Positions 27,239 through 40,128 of a stretch of DNA of 64,000 bases are shown piece after piece (position 1 is the stretch's first letter; each line of letters starts with the position of its first letter). A program made the position numbers and the translations under genes. The DNA is taken from positions 1-64,000 of the IMG/VR virus record IMGVR_UViG_3300048583_000043. The stretch is one strand, 5' to 3'. The stretch is from a virus. The notes beneath the pieces are model-generated. The model made no database searches, was not told the DNA's origin, and was given only the letters and a program-made list of their open reading frames with translations.

Positions 27239-27676
27239 TCATGTAATATCTTTCCTAAATCGTCTTACAATTTGACGAACATTCGATTGCTTAATTTCAA
27301 ACATCTTAGCAGTTTCTTGGTATGTATACCCCATTACTAATTTTGCAAACAAGATTTTTTTATGAAAAGGTGAGAAATTTGTTTCTTGAATGTTTTCTTG
27401 GAGAGAGACCTCTTCATAAGGAGCGTCTGCAAAATCATTATGAACGAAAAAGTTTTCTTTTTTCTTGATTCTAAACCAATCCCAAATCTGAGACATTAGT
27501 ATAGACAAGAACCAATTTTGCATTGACCCTTTCTTTGAGGAGAAGGATTTTGATCTGATAAGGGCTTTACAAAAAGCATTGTGTAAAACATCTTCATATG
27601 AAGGGTCTTTAACATATTTTTTAACAATACTAAGATATTGATTTTTGTTTTGTCTGTATAGATTTTCTAGAGACAT
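27239..27676 (-). CDS. ECF-like RNA polymerase sigma factor
   Basis: A 145-aa protein with the two ECF sigma domains. Region 2 covers about 25-70 (YEDVLHNAFCKALIRSKSF, then MQNWFLSILMSQIWDWFR). Region 4 is a C-terminal helix-turn-helix (KLVMGYTYQETAKMFEIKQ, about 112-130). It would redirect host RNA polymerase to phage promoters. phiEco32 likewise carries its own ECF sigma and also the amide-ligase genes seen here; no phage RNA polymerase gene was found in this window. Confidence 0.85.
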   Translation of the reverse strand: MSLENLYRQNKNQYLSIVKKYVKDPSYEDVLHNAFCKALIRSKSFSSKKGSMQNWFLSILMSQIWDWFRIKKKENFFVHNDFADAPYEEVSLQENIQETNFSPFHKKILFAKLVMGYTYQETAKMFEIKQSNVRQIVRRFRKDIT

Positions 27677-30043: not shown

Positions 30044-30301
30044 TCACTCCTTTAAAAAATATTCTTCATCATCTGTAAAATAATATTTAATCTGAAAACA
30101 CAAATCAAATCTTTCTTTTGATACGGAAAACAAATGCGTTTCTTTTCCTGTTTTACCTAAAACATAGACATGACATTTATGCATCATTAGAGAGTTTTTC
30201 ATAACATACTCTCTTTTTACCCCCTCGCTGTAGTCTCTGTAAACAGTATAACTGTAAGGTAGTAAATGAATAGGGCATAATCTTTTTAGTGTGTAGTTCA
30301 T
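30044..30301 (-). CDS. Small unknown protein with a related acidic C-terminus
   Basis: An 85-aa protein rich in Tyr, Lys and Cys, ending KYYFTDDEEYFLKE, a looser version of the shared aromatic-acidic tail. It is one base upstream of the primase-helicase start. Not recognised. Confidence 0.55.
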   Translation of the reverse strand: MNYTLKRLCPIHLLPYSYTVYRDYSEGVKREYVMKNSLMMHKCHVYVLGKTGKETHLFSVSKERFDLCFQIKYYFTDDEEYFLKE

Positions 30302-30322: not shown

Positions 30323-31171
30323 TCAAGAGTTTAGGAAGACATTTTTTTGTTTTTTGAAGATGTTTAAGTCTGACTTGGTCCAATCAATCGAATAGATAGC
30401 ATGTTGAATGTTTCTAATACCGTTGTAAAAAGTTTCGTAAGTGATCTGGTCTTTAATCACAGGATAGAAAAGCCCAAACACTTGTTTACTAAACCCTTCA
30501 GGGCCAGTGCCACTAGCCTGAGCAAACAGGTCTGTAGGATTTACGACAGTTTTAGCATACTCCCTGAGGCTAATGAGCATGGCACACCAATTGTAAATTT
30601 TATCTTGGTCAGGGGTTGATTCCAAAGCACGGAACTCTACAGAACCATATTTAGAGAGTGACGTAACATTCATGGAAGCATAACGAAGATCATCGTCAAC
30701 AAAGCCACGAAGGTCTCCCTTGGTCAGAACCTCACGAATTCTGGTAATCAGATATGAAGCGTCTGACATAGACAGACAAAAGTGATTCCCTTTTCTAGAA
30801 GGAGCGCAAAAATTAATAAAGCTCTCTTCGTAAATAGCATACAATGTCAGAAACGACACCAGTTGTCTAAGAGTGAGGTTTTGTACATTGATGTGACAGT
30901 GGATGCCTGCACGGTGGGAGTAGTCTACTTCACTGTCAAATTCTTTAAAAAGACCTTCCAACTCTTTTAGGGCATCTCGGATATAACTTAGAGAAAGGGG
31001 TTTTTTGAATACAAATTCTCTGTTGTCAACCCCTCTCAAAGAATTATCTTTTGTGATTCTCCAATAGGTTGAGCCGGTATTTGTAGGAGGTAGATCAGAA
31101 CCCTCTACTTCAATCTCCAACCCCACGTCCCCGGGCATAGGAGTTCTTTTAAACGCATCAACTACTAGCAT
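30323..31171 (-). CDS. Amidoligase (glutamine-synthetase-like COOH-NH2 ligase)
   Basis: A 282-aa member of the putative amidoligase family. Visible marks are DVGLEIEVEGSDLP (about 15-28, metal/ATP Glu residues), ITKDNSLRGVDNREFVFKKP (about 39-58), HRAGIHCHINVQNL (about 86-99) and YGSVEFRALESTPD (about 179-192). Such enzymes join a carboxyl to an amine with ATP. It is the last gene of a block with another ligase family, two glutamine amidotransferase types and an ATP-grasp enzyme. Substrate unknown. Confidence 0.83.
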   Translation of the reverse strand: MLVVDAFKRTPMPGDVGLEIEVEGSDLPPTNTGSTYWRITKDNSLRGVDNREFVFKKPLSLSYIRDALKELEGLFKEFDSEVDYSHRAGIHCHINVQNLTLRQLVSFLTLYAIYEESFINFCAPSRKGNHFCLSMSDASYLITRIREVLTKGDLRGFVDDDLRYASMNVTSLSKYGSVEFRALESTPDQDKIYNWCAMLISLREYAKTVVNPTDLFAQASGTGPEGFSKQVFGLFYPVIKDQITYETFYNGIRNIQHAIYSIDWTKSDLNIFKKQKNVFLNS

Positions 31172-31715
31172 TTGCTACATCCTTGTCTAAATGTTCTTGA
31201 AGATAGAAAAAAGGTTCTTTAAGAAAAATTCCTTTCTTGTTCCACTCTCCTACAACATCTGTACGATAGAAAAGATTTCCATCTTTGTCAATCCCAAAAT
31301 CTTTTGAGAATGCAATAGAAACTTTCTGAGAATTTTTCATAGAATTGTAGCAAGTAGATAGTTTAGGAAAATTTTCTGAAAGGGTTTGAATAAGAGAGTG
31401 GGGGAAAGAGAACCGACCTAGAGGGTCTTTGGAAACACGAAGGCTGCCAAGAGACAGCCCTTGTTTCCAACTATTCCTCATAGGTTTTCGTTCTACATAA
31501 ACTGCATAAGGGGTGATATTTGTCAACCCAAGTTTAAAACCTTCTAATTTGATATCTGAAGCAGGGATATGACCAGAAATCTTAGACTTAAGATTGAGAC
31601 AATGCACTTGCCAGTTAGCAAGGATATCGTGAACGTAGACAATTTGGTTATCGTTAGTAAAAACAATTGTGTCTTTTAAACGTTTTTTTGCATATTCTAG
31701 ATCATTGTAATACAT
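31158..31715 (-). CDS. Unknown protein inside the amide-ligase operon
   Basis: A 185-aa protein between the two ligase genes, overlapping the first by 14 bases and sharing the TAATG-type junction with the second. It has beta-like segments (DTIVFTNDNQIVYVHDIL, ITPYAVYVERKP) and no visible catalytic motif. Fixed position between ligases makes it a candidate substrate carrier or partner. Confidence 0.6.
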   Translation of the reverse strand: MYYNDLEYAKKRLKDTIVFTNDNQIVYVHDILANWQVHCLNLKSKISGHIPASDIKLEGFKLGLTNITPYAVYVERKPMRNSWKQGLSLGSLRVSKDPLGRFSFPHSLIQTLSENFPKLSTCYNSMKNSQKVSIAFSKDFGIDKDGNLFYRTDVVGEWNKKGIFLKEPFFYLQEHLDKDVANASS

Positions 31716-32611
31716 TATTTATAACTCTGGATGGTTGGAATTTCTGACTTATTTGCAAACATCTCTTGAATCATATAAAAAGCTTTGGTGACTTTAGACT
31801 CTCTGCCATCAATAGTAATAATGTCTACCATTTCTTTAGTAAAATCATCATAGTTATTGATGAAATCTTGTACTGAAACGCCACCACTTAGAACTTCATT
31901 GTAGAAATTCTCGTTAGCAAAGCACATTTCTACAGCTTTGAGGCTGTTATGATAAACAAATTTACGCAGCAAAGCACGATCTAGCCACTTGTTACTAAGA
32001 ACACGGTATTCCATGCCGTAAGGTTTTGGACGGAAAGATCCTGCTTTGCCATAAAGAGTGCGGCGTTTTGAATCTTTATCCCACAAAAGAGAAGGGATAC
32101 CAATAAAAACATCTAACATCTTAGCAAGAGACTTACAAGCTTCCATGTGCCCGGGATCATTGGGATCTACAGGTTCTTTGTGCCAACCAATGTGTACATG
32201 ACCACTGGCAGTTCTGAAAGGCATAGAGGCTTGAGGGGTGGGATTAAAAGTGTTAGTCCAAGCATTGAAGTCAGGTTCGCAGCCTAGTTGTTTAGCAATC
32301 TTAGGCTGTGCTTGAATATAGTCATTACCGAATTCAGCAACAGATTCAATAAAGATCTCATAGCCCGGAACCATATCGGTCAGTTGTTCAAGAACTGATG
32401 TAAGGTTACGTTCCCATTGATCATAATCTGAAGCAGGGGAGATGTTAAATTCTAGCGCCATCCCGTCTACTTGTACAGCACCATTAACAACCTTATAAGG
32501 GTTTTCTTTTGTTCCTGGGATAAGGCCATGAGCGGAAACATGAACACCATTACGTTTTACAAAAACCTCAGGGTCTGCACCCACAAGGAAGTCATGCCCA
32601 TTGATTTTCAT
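31715..32611 (-). CDS. phiEco32-type COOH-NH2 ligase (type 2), copy 1
   Basis: A 298-aa ligase of the phiEco32-like type. Characteristic phrases are FLVGADPEVFVK (8-19), GLIPGTKENPY (about 29-39), VQVDGMALEFNISP (about 46-59), ASGHVHIGWH (about 134-143), LYGKAGSFRPKPYGMEYRVL (about 186-205) and the helix after it. It probably adds an amine to a carboxyl group. A second copy lies at 39,325, with the same motifs in the same order. Confidence 0.85.
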   Translation of the reverse strand: MKINGHDFLVGADPEVFVKRNGVHVSAHGLIPGTKENPYKVVNGAVQVDGMALEFNISPASDYDQWERNLTSVLEQLTDMVPGYEIFIESVAEFGNDYIQAQPKIAKQLGCEPDFNAWTNTFNPTPQASMPFRTASGHVHIGWHKEPVDPNDPGHMEACKSLAKMLDVFIGIPSLLWDKDSKRRTLYGKAGSFRPKPYGMEYRVLSNKWLDRALLRKFVYHNSLKAVEMCFANENFYNEVLSGGVSVQDFINNYDDFTKEMVDIITIDGRESKVTKAFYMIQEMFANKSEIPTIQSYK

Positions 32612-33942
32612 AGTGACACTCCAATTTTATCAAGGGTTTCTTTATCTACTTTGCACTCTTTGCACAAGAAAGCGTCTTTATCTAGCCAATGAATTTCTTT
32701 ATTATCCTCCCAATCAGGGATTTTTCCACACAAGCCGCATCCACAATTTACTTTATGTTCCCAAGCATCTTTTGTAAGAGATTGGTGAGGACTATGCCAA
32801 GGAGCAAAAGTAGGAAAAGGTAGAATAGTTTTTGATGACAGGATTTTATAACCTTTATCATCAACAATTAGTTTCTCACCTTTCTTAAGAGGCTGCCATT
32901 CGATATTTGGCCAACTAATCGTGTAGTCAAAATCAAGCTCAAGAGCAGAGAACATGGTTTTCTTAGGAATCCACAACCCATTTTTAAGACCTTTGCCTTG
33001 AAATTGATTCTTGGCATTTAGTGAGTCTTGATAAGGGATGTTAATCTTAACCATCTCACCATCGGATGTTACACCTTTGGCATACTTAAGAACAGGGCTG
33101 CCTGCATCAGTGTGCAAAGAAAGGATGGCAAACGCATCATCAGAGTCTCCCCAGTGATTGCTTTGCCCTTTGAAATTGTTTTGCCACCCCCCGTAAAAAT
33201 TTCCTTTTGCTGCCGGAACAGGAGGAGGGACATACTCTTTTAAAACAGATGACTCAATCACAACCTTGGTATGAGATTCTGGATGAATTGAGAGGAGTGT
33301 GTTTTCTTTAAGGCTACCAACTTCACCAATCTCTACAGAACAACGACTAGTAGCAACTCTGATCATCCAAGGTTCAGAGGCCCAAAACATGGCACTATTA
33401 TCTTTAGACTGAGCAATAAAAAGAGGACGCTCTTTATTACGAATAAGATGTACACGATCAGTGCGTTTGTCATACCAAGACAATGCCATTGCACCGTTAG
33501 TCTTAGCCCACACATCTTCAATACTAAAAGTGTCAATCTCATTGTAAAGGATTTGACTGTCGATATCAAACTTAGAATAGCCTTTGAATTTAAGAAGGTT
33601 GTGTGTTGGGATGGTGCCATTGTGGGCACCTACAATATTCTCAAACTCAAAAGGGTGAGCATTTTCTGGAACAATTTTACCTTGGGTGGCTTTACGATTG
33701 TGACCAATCAATGCAAAAGGGTTGTTCTTAAAATGACTAAAAGGACGAGCATTGTAGCCCGACAATTCTAGAAATTCTGCGGCTGTTAAGACTTCTTTTT
33801 CTACTACCCAGCCACTTTTCCCAATAGCTGCAATTCCTGTACTGTCAAACCCCCTTACTGTGTCAAATACCAGCATTTGCTGGAACACTTCATGATGTTT
33901 GAAAGAAAGATTTTTAGATACAACGCCTACAAGGCCGCACAT
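32608..33942 (-). CDS. Class II glutamine amidotransferase with C-terminal zinc fingers
   Basis: A 444-aa protein whose N-terminus begins MCGLVGVVS, with Cys2 as the Ntn-type nucleophile that releases ammonia from glutamine. Supporting motifs are RGFDSTGIA (about 30), IGHNRKATQG (about 79) and VGAHNGTI (about 104), as in GlmS/asparagine-synthetase-like domains. The C-terminal part is unrelated to GlmS and ends in CGCGLCGK plus CKEC, a probable zinc site. It may feed ammonia to the neighbouring ligases or act as a gamma-glutamyl transferase. Confidence 0.85.
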   Translation of the reverse strand: MCGLVGVVSKNLSFKHHEVFQQMLVFDTVRGFDSTGIAAIGKSGWVVEKEVLTAAEFLELSGYNARPFSHFKNNPFALIGHNRKATQGKIVPENAHPFEFENIVGAHNGTIPTHNLLKFKGYSKFDIDSQILYNEIDTFSIEDVWAKTNGAMALSWYDKRTDRVHLIRNKERPLFIAQSKDNSAMFWASEPWMIRVATSRCSVEIGEVGSLKENTLLSIHPESHTKVVIESSVLKEYVPPPVPAAKGNFYGGWQNNFKGQSNHWGDSDDAFAILSLHTDAGSPVLKYAKGVTSDGEMVKINIPYQDSLNAKNQFQGKGLKNGLWIPKKTMFSALELDFDYTISWPNIEWQPLKKGEKLIVDDKGYKILSSKTILPFPTFAPWHSPHQSLTKDAWEHKVNCGCGLCGKIPDWEDNKEIHWLDKDAFLCKECKVDKETLDKIGVSL

Positions 33943-33948
33943 ATGTCA

Positions 33949-34557
33949 TTAAACTCCTAGAAAATGGTTGAGGTAATAAAAGTAGGTGTCTTGATCCTCT
34001 TCTGAAGTGTTATACTCAGGATGAGGCTGATAACAGAGGCAACGTGTGCTGGCATAGTACACAGCTTCTGTGTCAATAGATGGGCCTTGTTCTCTCGTGT
34101 TTTCTCCCTCTCTAAGTGTTGAGCAGTTTGCAGTGAGGAGAACAATAGCATCAGAAGATGGGATCATCATCTGATGATGAGAAGAGGATGTCAAAATTTC
34201 TAAATTACGAACATGACATTTAGAAGCATGTCCTTGCCAAAGATTGTGGTTATTGACATGTTGCCACATCTTACCCCCATTAGCGATATTTAGTAGTTGT
34301 CCCCCTCTACAAATACCCGCCATAGGGATTTTACCTACATATTCGTGGTAATAAAGGAATTCTCTTTCATCCCTAGCAGGATTGGTAGATGTCGCAGCGT
34401 GTTTTGTTTCTCCATAATAATGTGGGGATACATCAGCACCCCCTGTAAATTGAATTAGATCAACATCATCATCAAGACCAGTTGCAATTTGCCAACCTCT
34501 CTGCAAGAACATACGATCTACAAGAAGATCGGAAGAAAAGATTTTAACTTTTGGCAT
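33949..34557 (-). CDS. Class I glutamine amidotransferase / gamma-glutamyl hydrolase-like (C26)
   Basis: A 202-aa protein with the C26 pattern: FTGGADVSPHYYGE (about 36-49), the nucleophile elbow MAGICRGGQLLNIANGG (about 77-93, Cys in the centre) and CYQPHPEYN (about 180-188) carrying the His and Glu. Relatives cleave gamma-glutamyl bonds. Within this block it may trim or recycle gamma-glutamyl products. Confidence 0.82.
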   Translation of the reverse strand: MPKVKIFSSDLLVDRMFLQRGWQIATGLDDDVDLIQFTGGADVSPHYYGETKHAATSTNPARDEREFLYYHEYVGKIPMAGICRGGQLLNIANGGKMWQHVNNHNLWQGHASKCHVRNLEILTSSSHHQMMIPSSDAIVLLTANCSTLREGENTREQGPSIDTEAVYYASTRCLCYQPHPEYNTSEEDQDTYFYYLNHFLGV

Positions 34558-35398
34558 TTTGCATTTCCTTTTTCATTTCATCTACTAAAAAATGTAAATC
34601 TTCTGCATTTTTTATTACTAGTTCTGTTGTAGGTTGCTTCTCAAAGACGTTTAACGAACGCTTTTTCAGGCTAGAAGGGAGTTTTACTTTCTTAAAAAAC
34701 CCATCAAGATGGTGATTGTATCTAGTTTCACCAAAATAACTAAACAGATACCCAGGACGCCAACCCAACTCTATTTTATAAGATCGTTCTAGTTTAGGTT
34801 TGTAACCCGGGTCAAAGAAATTCTTTAATGCCATCCAAGTAGTAGAAGAGGCATTAAAAATTGTATGGGGTGAAGATAGCGGAGAGTAGGTGTAAAACCC
34901 GTCATTGTCTTTGTTAAGAAAATGAGCGAGAAGGTAAGACCAAGAAGGAGAAAATCCGTAGTCTAACATATTATCGAAAACTTTATTTCTTTCACCCAAC
35001 GATTTACAATATCTGTCAAAAGTAAATCTGGATGCAACACAGGCCCCAAAGAAGGTATTCCAAGGTTGATCAACATCCATGACAAAACCTTTTGAATTGA
35101 TATAATCAACATCTTTGCTAAAGAAACATTTAGCAAAAGGGCTGTCATTTACAAGCCAGTGATTATAAACATCGGCTGATTTTTGTTTATACACAGGCTT
35201 TCTAATACGAGTCATAAAGACAGTAGGGAGCCAACTAATTGAAGCAGCCCTGCCGTGACATGGTTGAACACCTAAATCGTCTAGTTTGTCATTGTCATAC
35301 ACATAACCGTAACTAACTTGAGAATAGCGGTCTCCATAAGTTACATTTTTATCCTTAAAGAACTTAAGGACAGTAGGGTGATTAAGATAATCAGACAA
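34544..35398 (-). CDS. Unknown protein inside the amide-ligase operon
   Basis: A 284-aa protein, aromatic-rich, not recognised. TTG at 35,398 is chosen because GAGGAGG lies seven bases upstream and it overlaps the ATP-grasp stop. Features seen: several Trp/Tyr/His-rich stretches (SWSYLLAHFLNKDND, YFGETRYNHHLDGFF) and a charged helix at the C-terminus. Its strict place between ligase-type genes suggests a role in the same pathway. Confidence 0.62.
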   Translation of the reverse strand: MSDYLNHPTVLKFFKDKNVTYGDRYSQVSYGYVYDNDKLDDLGVQPCHGRAASISWLPTVFMTRIRKPVYKQKSADVYNHWLVNDSPFAKCFFSKDVDYINSKGFVMDVDQPWNTFFGACVASRFTFDRYCKSLGERNKVFDNMLDYGFSPSWSYLLAHFLNKDNDGFYTYSPLSSPHTIFNASSTTWMALKNFFDPGYKPKLERSYKIELGWRPGYLFSYFGETRYNHHLDGFFKKVKLPSSLKKRSLNVFEKQPTTELVIKNAEDLHFLVDEMKKEMQNAKS

Positions 35399-36242
35399 GG
35401 ACAGCCTCCTCAGAAAGAGCCGGATGAATAAATTTCTTCCAACCACCTTTTTCAGTAGTTACAGGGATTCTATCAGCACCATGTTCAATAAGATAGTCAA
35501 AACACTTAGCCATGCATTCTTGACGATAAGGGGAGGTTTGAGAAGGGGCGGAGTTGATTTCTAGAACATAAGGAACCCCCTCTGCATCAACCATCACATC
35601 AACAGCACCAAAATCCAATGATGACAGGAGGAAGGCTTCACGAGCCACTTTAACGGCTTTAAGAGGCCAATCGGACCATGATACGTTGTCAAAGCGCCCA
35701 CCAAGGGCAACATTCCATGCCACAGCTTGAGGGTTGCCGGGGGTTTTTCTAGCCACCCATGCAACACGTCCTTGAACAAATGTCACACGATACTCAGCCA
35801 CCTTGTTAATGAACTTAGATGCATACCATCCAGGACCACAACGTTGGATGGCATTGTTCATTTCTTGATGATTTAAAACAAGGTAGAGGCGACGACCTTG
35901 AGCATGAACACGAGGACGAACAACTAGAGGAAAATCTTGCTCATCATAATCATCTCCAAAGAAAGAATCAGGTACAATACGCATATCAGTGTCAAGGTAG
36001 TGTTCAAATAGCTTTTTACGAAACTCGCTTTTATCATTCACTTCATGAATAGCCGAAGATTTGTTGATGATTGTGACACCATTAGGCACATCTGTTGTGC
36101 AACCCCAACGAATAACCATTGTAGGCGGGGAGGGCCAAGGACGATCATTACGAACAGCGCCATCAATCTTATTAGAAAAACGGGCAATCTCACGGGCAGA
36201 TGTGCGCCCTAGTTTACGACGACGAAGAATGTAGATGGACAT
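35391..36242 (-). CDS. ATP-grasp ligase (RimK/YheC-like)
   Basis: A 283-aa ATP-grasp enzyme that would form amide bonds through an acylphosphate. The nucleotide-binding part has PLVVRPRVHAQGRRLYLV (about 109-126), the central part YRVTFVQGRVAWVARK, and the metal-binding end VDVMVDAEGVPYVLEINSAP (about 215-234; Asp and Glu-x-Asn). It is the first gene after the intergenic promoter-like region, so it opens the amide-ligase operon. Confidence 0.85.
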   Translation of the reverse strand: MSIYILRRRKLGRTSAREIARFSNKIDGAVRNDRPWPSPPTMVIRWGCTTDVPNGVTIINKSSAIHEVNDKSEFRKKLFEHYLDTDMRIVPDSFFGDDYDEQDFPLVVRPRVHAQGRRLYLVLNHQEMNNAIQRCGPGWYASKFINKVAEYRVTFVQGRVAWVARKTPGNPQAVAWNVALGGRFDNVSWSDWPLKAVKVAREAFLLSSLDFGAVDVMVDAEGVPYVLEINSAPSQTSPYRQECMAKCFDYLIEHGADRIPVTTEKGGWKKFIHPALSEEAVLV

Positions 36243-36450
36243 ATATACTCCTAGAGGCTGTAGGAAGGCCGTACAGGGCCTTGATGAGTTTTTGTAGGGG
36301 TGGGTGGCCTAAACAATAGATGGGCCTGTAGGGCCCTTCCTATGAAAGAATAAAAATATTTTCTAACACCCCTTGACAAGAGGATTTTTTAGCCTATATA
36401 TAAGAAACTCCCTTTCGTTTTAAAAAATTGTTCCAGGGGTTTCTAATATA
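36243..36450. promoter_or_regulatory. Intergenic region with promoter-like element and inverted repeats
   Basis: This gap separates the amide-ligase operon from the upstream small genes. Plus strand 36,382-36,404 contains TTTTTTAGCCTATATATAAG; nearly the same element occurs at 46,795-46,817. A TTGACA lies 16 bases before the TATATA on the plus strand; on the minus strand TTGTCAAGGGG and AT-rich blocks point toward the ATP-grasp gene. GGAAGG/CCTTCC repeats flank 36,250-36,342. The direction of activity is not clear. Confidence 0.5.
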
Positions 36451-36831
36451 CTATCTATAATTATAATACCATGTATATGTATTATCTACTACGTCAGATA
36501 GTGGACCAGAGGGTTTTTTATCCTGAGTGTACATCCAACATTCATCACCACCTAGGGTTTTGACTAGTCTTCTGCAATACCAATTAGGGTGTCCTTCTAG
36601 TCTATCTGTTCTTGCTAGAGTTTCATCATCTACTCTCCACACTTCTCCTGCTACAGGAAGGGAGATATAATGACCCTCTTCATTTTCTTTCTCTACAGCT
36701 ACAGGGAAAGAGGGGGAGAGGAGAATAAACCTCTCTACTGTAACATCCCTTCTTACAAATTCAGAATCTTTAAGAAGGTGGTTATTACCATAACCTTTTT
36801 TTAGTGTGCCGTAAACAAATAGGTTATTCAT
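36451..36831 (-). CDS. Gamma-glutamylcyclotransferase-like (AIG2 family) protein
   Basis: A 126-aa protein starting NNLFVYGTLKKGYGNNHLL, the YGTL-K-G motif of the GGCT/AIG2 family, with the catalytic-type Glu in DRLEGHPNWYCRR (about 80-92). Family enzymes release gamma-glutamyl groups as 5-oxoproline. It lies just upstream of the amide-ligase operon and may act on its products. ATG at 36,831 follows GAAGAAGA, which is also the end of the preceding gene. Confidence 0.82.
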   Translation of the reverse strand: MNNLFVYGTLKKGYGNNHLLKDSEFVRRDVTVERFILLSPSFPVAVEKENEEGHYISLPVAGEVWRVDDETLARTDRLEGHPNWYCRRLVKTLGGDECWMYTQDKKPSGPLSDVVDNTYTWYYNYR

Positions 36832-39324: not shown

Positions 39325-40128
39325 TTAAGCCTCCTTGGCTACTGCGAAATACTTAACCACTTTAGCTGTTGGGTTGTCAAAGAACAAAGAAGTTCTATTT
39401 CCTTGATCAATGATATTACGATAGTAATTATCTTGTGAGACGTATTCACCTGAACGAAGGGCGCGGACAGCTTTCATTGTTTGAAGAAAAACAAATTTAG
39501 TAATTCTTTTGTTGAACAACCATTGGTTGCTCAACACTCTGTATTCCATACCATAGGGCTTTAGTCGAATTGATCCAGCTTTGCCATAGATAGCCCTTCT
39601 GCTATCGTCTTTATCCCACAGTAGGGAATACACCCCTACATATTTATCCATAAGTTTGCCTAGTTGCAGGCAATTTTTGTAGTTAGTGTGGGCGTCTGTC
39701 GAAAGAAAACCTCCAATATGGATGTGCCCTCCCGCAGCACGAATGTTAGTATCTGCGGGAGGGGGCGGGTTTGATTCTTCTGTATATACATTCAGATCAG
39801 GAGAGCACCCCATGATTTTCTGATCTTCTGGGATATCTTCTGGTAATGTGATGACAGGAGAAGTGTTCACTTCATAACCATCTACCATCTTCATCAATGT
39901 TTCATACACTTTGTCTAGTTTATATTGAAACTGATCATAAGTTGTGACGGGGTCAATGTTGAATTCCAACGCCATGCCATCTACTTGAACAGCACCGCCC
40001 TCAACAAGGTGAGGAGCCTCTTTTGTCCCGGGGATTATTTGAAAAGGGTTGACAAATCTCCCCTGTTTATGAATAAAAATTTCTGGGTCAGCACCAATTG
40101 TTACAGGCTCTCCATTAATCAGAATCAT
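39325..40128 (-). CDS. phiEco32-type COOH-NH2 ligase (type 2), copy 2
   Basis: A 267-aa paralogue of the ligase at 31,715. Shared phrases: IGADPEIFIHK, IPGTKEAPH, VQVDGMALEFNIDPV, AAGGHIHIGGF, IYGKAGSIRLKPYGMEYRVL. It is shorter at the C-terminus and lies about 3.3 kb upstream of the main block with an unrecognised 141-aa partner gene. Divergence within the shared core suggests a different substrate. Confidence 0.85.
   Translation of the reverse strand: MILINGEPVTIGADPEIFIHKQGRFVNPFQIIPGTKEAPHLVEGGAVQVDGMALEFNIDPVTTYDQFQYKLDKVYETLMKMVDGYEVNTSPVITLPEDIPEDQKIMGCSPDLNVYTEESNPPPPADTNIRAAGGHIHIGGFLSTDAHTNYKNCLQLGKLMDKYVGVYSLLWDKDDSRRAIYGKAGSIRLKPYGMEYRVLSNQWLFNKRITKFVFLQTMKAVRALRSGEYVSQDNYYRNIIDQGNRTSLFFDNPTAKVVKYFAVAKEA

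Follow-up and report, generated by a model that had tools for sequence, protein, structure and literature searches.

A viral locus carrying the phage 'peptidoglycan modification cassette' together with a second COOH-NH2 ligase gene

A group of seven genes found in the phages RIO-1, PSA-HP1, phiEco32, LUZ24, PA11, and CW02 is known in the literature as the 'peptidoglycan modification cassette' (PMC5498523; PMC11945000; PMC10580990). The papers that build on the earlier work trace the original prediction in phiEco32-like phages to Iyer 2009 and the account of RIO-1 to Hardies 2013 (as cited in PMC5498523 and PMC11945000). The roles proposed there, offered as hypotheses, are the modification of peptidoglycan peptides to counter superinfection or the preparation of lysis sites (PMC5498523; PMC11945000). 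In the Pseudoalteromonas phage PSA-HP1, cassette genes are described as being expressed 'immediately' on infection (PMC7082346). Predicted since 2009, the cassette is known from hundreds of tailed phages, and its genes are among the earliest to be expressed. A viral DNA stretch of 64,000 nucleotides (hereafter the window; positions 1 to 64,000 of IMG/VR record IMGVR_UViG_3300048583_000043, which is 64,342 bases long) is a further carrier of this published cassette, at 30323-36831, and differs mainly by one extra ligase gene. The genes concerned are as follows:

A, 30323-31171, minus strand: glutamine-synthetase-fold amidoligase (Amidoligase_2; Pfam PF12224, 5.8e-9; phrog_7469, 4e-68)
B, 31158-31715, minus strand: core accessory protein of 185 residues, function unknown (phrog_11055, PHROGs match)
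C, 31715-32611, minus strand: phiEco32-type COOH-NH2 ligase, type 2 (PF14395, 1.4e-6; phrog_3815, 1e-82)
D, 32608-33942, minus strand: class II glutamine amidotransferase with Cys2 (PF13522, GATase_6, 6e-15; PHROGs GATase II, 1e-69)
E, 33949-34557, minus strand: Peptidase C26 gamma-glutamyl hydrolase-like protein (PF07722, 4e-20; PHROGs C26-type, 6e-48)
F, 34544-35398 (longest open reading frame reaching 35446), minus strand: conserved module protein, function unknown (profile family; no Pfam match)
G, 35391-36242, minus strand: TTL/RimK-like ATP-grasp ligase (PF03133, 5e-5; phrog_2599, 1e-16)
H, 36451-36831, minus strand: gamma-glutamylamine cyclotransferase-like protein (GGACT/AIG2; PF06094, 1.7e-19; PHROGs GGCT, 6e-18)
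I, 39325-40128, minus strand: second type-2 COOH-NH2 ligase (PF14395, 3.2e-9; 47% identical to C)

Profile searches with Pfam and PHROGs recover every enzyme family that a preliminary description of this DNA had named from the letters, each in its place. The features by which the cassette is recognized are all present: a PF14395 ligase with PF12224 nearby, an ATP-grasp ligase, a class II glutamine amidotransferase with Cys2, C26 and gamma-glutamyl cyclotransferase genes, and an adjoining primase-helicase and DNA polymerase. In the direction of transcription, the order upstream of the primase-helicase is H, G, F, E, D, C, B, A. The same description regarded the set as unusually complete; it is instead normal for a phage group in which the cassette is published and widespread (PMC5498523; PMC11945000; PMC10580990).

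RIO-1-like podoviruses (PSA-HP1 open reading frames (ORFs) 40-47; Hardies 2013; Duhaime 2017, PMC5498523) share with the window two amidoligases, an ATP-grasp ligase, a glutamine amidotransferase, and a gamma-glutamyl cyclotransferase, as well as a position among transcription and replication genes (PMC5498523). The window differs from them in having a second type-2 ligase about 3 kb upstream of the block, and from PSA-HP1 in having C26 plus GGACT, C26 not being named in the passages that describe the PSA-HP1 cassette. By profile, phiEco32 (gp77-gp86) and LUZ24 (gp16-gp22) carry C, B, A, D, G, and H beside the primase-helicase, but they have GGACT without C26 and place D and G differently, and the F family is not detected in either by profile search. 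Zobellviridae (PA11/TC6, CVT22, and CW02) share F-E-D-C-B-A-G wholly or for the most part, with the order and the replication genes unchanged; in TC6, O4, and CVT22, however, neither a second type-2 ligase nor GGACT is found.

The survey used iterative profiles made from the window proteins, first on 32 IMG/VR loci together with 8 others and 4 annotated phages and then on 137 loci holding a type-2 ligase; counts are approximate because some contigs entered twice as separate loci. In about 120 of the 137 loci, this gene set lies beside the primase-helicase and DNA polymerase in an almost identical order. By gene, the counts among the 137 are 129 for D, 127 for A, 125 for B, 124 for G, 112 for E, 83 for F, and 26 for H. 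F-E-D-C-B-A-G-primase-polymerase is the arrangement seen most often, and C, B, and A are neighbors in almost every locus; the window's order, H-G-F-E-D-C-B-A-primase-polymerase, recurs in L039, L040, L074, L075, L076, and L108 (L076 and L040 being the same contig). The earlier reading of these genes as one pathway is borne out, in that they are inherited together in a shared order, and the survey reduces the core to C-B-A, D, and G plus one gamma-glutamyl-removing enzyme. The type-2 ligase family is present on at least 509 IMG/VR contigs and in at least 317 phage records; a megablast search of the phage collection returned no match as a nearest nucleotide relative of the window.

Bacterial genomes contribute only 14 type-2-ligase loci from a collection of 84,980 species, all from metagenome-assembled genomes (MAGs). 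The loci inspected among these either resemble phage or contain the ligase with the remainder of the cassette missing, and they provide no clue to a host pathway. Two MAG loci keep different company. L071, on an archaeal MAG contig (JANQNF010000016.1, 3628-13554), is phage-like and encodes a class II glutamine amidotransferase, Amidoligase_2, and a COOH-NH2 ligase without B; the COOH-NH2 ligase is followed directly by IMP dehydrogenase and an adenylosuccinate-synthetase homolog, a possible link to purines, and the locus also has a uracil-DNA glycosylase and a sigma factor. L073, from a Deltaproteobacteria MAG (JAFDED010000042.1, 9980-15429), has two COOH-NH2 ligases beside a DnaX-like protein, a single-stranded DNA-binding protein, and a helicase, and the rest of the cassette is not there.

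A point new here concerns the two trimming enzymes, which replace one another, every sufficiently covered module having at least one of them. Across 29 whole records, C26 is found in 24 and GGACT in 9. Among the five that have no C26 match, tf, Slicky01, L012, and L021 have GGACT, and the C26 gene of L015 is cut by the contig end. According to profile searches, phiEco32 and LUZ24 (its first 20 kb) have GGACT only and CW02 has both. Neither gene is present in 12 of 120 full modules, and every one of these 12 is cut off within 3.1 kb upstream of C. Most simply read, the two enzymes serve one purpose, gamma-glutamyl removal, and a step of this kind is needed; this suggests that an intermediate of the cassette carries a gamma-glutamyl group. 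Comparable chemistry occurs in the PuuA-PuuD pathway of putrescine and the BtrJ-BtrG steps of butirosin, where a gamma-glutamyl group is attached by an ATP-dependent ligase and then taken off again by a C26 hydrolase or GGACT-like cyclotransferase. A PuuD-type C26 hydrolase with catalytic Cys-His-Glu is present in the window as E; a PuuA-type glutamine synthetase (Gln-synt_C) is not, no module protein giving a Pfam Gln-synt match. Each of the two pathways has a single ligase, and they differ further from the window in having no COOH-NH2 type-2 ligase, B, or F. The likeness is a chemical analogy rather than membership.

Two proteins of the block had been left unrecognized, those at 31,158 (B) and 34,544 (F). 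Both belong to the module; B, however, was already on record as phrog_11055. B is a core cassette member, a point new in this analysis: it is fixed between C and A, the two glutamine-synthetase-like ligases, and carries the motif R-x-P-x-R-Q-[WY]-x-R-G, and by profile phiEco32 gp85 and LUZ24 gp17 are B. Structure prediction, which had been proposed for both proteins, gives a confident AlphaFold2 (AF2) model of B (predicted local distance difference test, pLDDT, 94) whose N-terminal part is SH3/Tudor-like. In the PDB, the fold has only partial SH3/Tudor-like matches, with E above 0.1, and at full length it matches only phage proteins, with 12 matches at E up to 0.001 in the viral library, including CW02 (TM 0.85) and RIO-1, both known cassette carriers. 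F is a second conserved and fast-evolving member, also new in this analysis, and its AF2 model (pLDDT 73) has no PDB match. To judge from the letters, the probable start of F is the TTG at 35398, directly behind a GAGGAGG ribosome site, rather than the GTG at 35446. Candidates for F in phiEco32 and LUZ24 (gp87, gp88, gp14, and gp15) were unsupported, with profile-profile E values of 0.06 to 0.6, gp87 aligning over the right segment. Comparison of B with F gave no support for common ancestry.

The further type-2 ligase noticed at 39,325, I, is real, intact, and unusual, matching PF14395 and retaining all invariant columns of the COOH-NH2 ligase family in the alignment. In the tree, I groups with L063, L025, and L121 (support 0.957), apart from the window's own C, whose clade comprises L039, L040, L074, L075, L077, and L108. 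All 19 relatives tested carry a single copy. From this grouping and the single copy in relatives, I appears to have been acquired from another phage that bears the module and not to be a recent tandem copy; a point new here is that I is private to this phage and derived from another module lineage.

The enzymes keep their predicted catalytic residues. In alignments of relatives, the triad Cys83/His179/Glu181 of E, the GGACT Glu79 of H, and the ATP-grasp E-x-N of G (Glu228-x-Asn230) are conserved, the nucleophile Cys2 of D is kept in 29 of 32 aligned sequences, and the ligases retain E-x-E, H-x-H, and YG-x-EYR motifs. The nearest solved chain to E is 7d4r, a 'Probable glutamine amidotransferase' of the PuuD type (SpuA); those nearest to H are YtfP and AIG2-like domain protein 1. 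D resembles the GlmS glutaminase, and some 240 residues past the glutaminase domain have no Pfam domain assigned; its C-terminus is a CxxC...CxxC segment, the CxxC pair being found in 96 of 112 homologs. A segment scan of the module proteins found no transmembrane-like or hydrophobic segment in any member. The enzyme set is therefore presumably cytoplasmic, and so should be its acceptor.

With the core narrowed, B a near-constant partner with a phage-only fold, and a hint of gamma-glutamyl chemistry, the question of what the cassette makes becomes easier to test. Tentatively, and at somewhat less than even probability, the cassette builds and trims amide or gamma-glutamyl links, most likely on a cytoplasmic wall precursor early in infection. 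The ligases G and C-B-A would use ATP to activate carboxylates and couple these to amines, so that a soluble acceptor gains amide or gamma-glutamyl (isopeptide) links, while D would hydrolyze glutamine to supply ammonia for amidating a carboxylate. E or H would remove a gamma-glutamyl group as an editing or final unmasking step, by analogy with BtrG (GGACT-like) and PuuD (C26), which finish the butirosin and putrescine pathways. B would probably act as a non-catalytic scaffold or substrate-holding subunit linking C with A. The likeliest acceptor would be a cytoplasmic cell-wall precursor peptide, its alteration making the envelope suit the phage or shutting out competitors. In favor of this explanation are the families and their motifs, the conserved order, the same set in phiEco32 and LUZ24, the exchange of E and H, the lack of transmembrane segments, the immediate transcription in PSA-HP1 (PMC7082346), and the published wall proposal (PMC5498523; PMC11945000).

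Several points weigh against this explanation. C26 and GGACT enzymes act on gamma-glutamyl amines generally, so that nothing in them is specific to peptidoglycan, and no wall-synthesis gene lies beside the module in the loci inspected. The exchange of E and H rests on related phages that are not statistically independent, which weakens any probability attached to it. The cassette literature, as far as its accessible text goes, reports no measured product, substrate, or phenotype; the preliminary description was right that the product has no established structure, the literature search on the cassette having turned up no substrate or product experiment. As acceptor, a free metabolite or a host protein comes close behind in likelihood, and the order of the candidate readings runs from a wall precursor to a free gamma-glutamyl or amide metabolite and then to a protein tag.

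The cassette could instead make a small gamma-glutamyl or amide metabolite, for instance from polyamines or amino acids, for host takeover or counter-defence, which we consider rather unlikely but the best of the alternatives. Relatives of C26 and GGACT (PuuD, GGACT, and BtrG) are generally known to act on free gamma-glutamyl amines, the closest solved relative of E, 7d4r, being of the PuuD type, and all the enzymes are without hydrophobic segments. The immediate expression in PSA-HP1 (PMC7082346) would also fit, but a TTL/RimK-type ATP-grasp enzyme and three ligases exceed the needs of a single gamma-glutamyl amine. A more elaborate and doubtful version has the cassette as an assembly line for an undescribed gamma-glutamyl-masked or amidated small molecule at the very start of infection, in which C and A would be complexed on the scaffold B, the mask would be removed by C26 or GGACT, and the horizontally gained I would add a building block.

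It is less probable still that the cassette tags a host or phage protein with an amino acid or peptide, in the manner of TTL and RimK, which act on acidic C-terminal tails. G does match both the TTL and RimK profiles in Pfam, and phage ATP-grasp enzymes have been suggested to carry out such tagging (PMC4431377); relatives of GGACT and C26, however, have small molecules as their usual substrates. In the window, five small ORFs that are otherwise unlike one another carry similar acidic tails at their C-termini, [FY][FY]-[DE]-x-E-E-[DE]-x-L, with varying third codon positions (minus-strand ends at 27667, 27984, 36824, 37141, and 37335, and a weaker case at 30044). The tail does not occur in 20 Markov-shuffled windows. 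It is also missing from each of the 19 other sequences with the module that were checked, and on that ground the tails were rejected as ligase substrates linked to the cassette. The purine run encoding the tail may be the ribosome site of the next, overlapping gene, which does not explain the aromatic pair.

DNA, once listed among possible targets, is very improbable: hypermodification through amide bonds, as by CmoY on carboxymethylcytosine, would suit the location by the primase-helicase and DNA polymerase, and amide ligation of DNA bases does exist in phages (PMC12783734), but 11 of 16 restriction enzymes are reported to cut genomic DNA of the LUZ24-like cassette phage U17 (PMC11945000), the window ORFs scanned yielded no base-handle enzyme and none of CmoA, the C5-methyltransferase CmoX, and the asparagine-synthetase-like CmoY, and CmoY belongs to a ligase family other than that of A and C.

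Elsewhere in the window, the plus strand encodes capsid, terminase, portal, and endolysin genes, and the minus strand ribonucleotide reductase, ThyX, DNA polymerase, a sigma factor, and the primase-helicase. Between G and H lie some 200 non-coding bases (36243-36450) containing a pair of related GC-rich inverted repeats, GGGCCCTACAGGCCC and AAGGCCCTGTACGGCCTT, which are terminator-like, one per strand.

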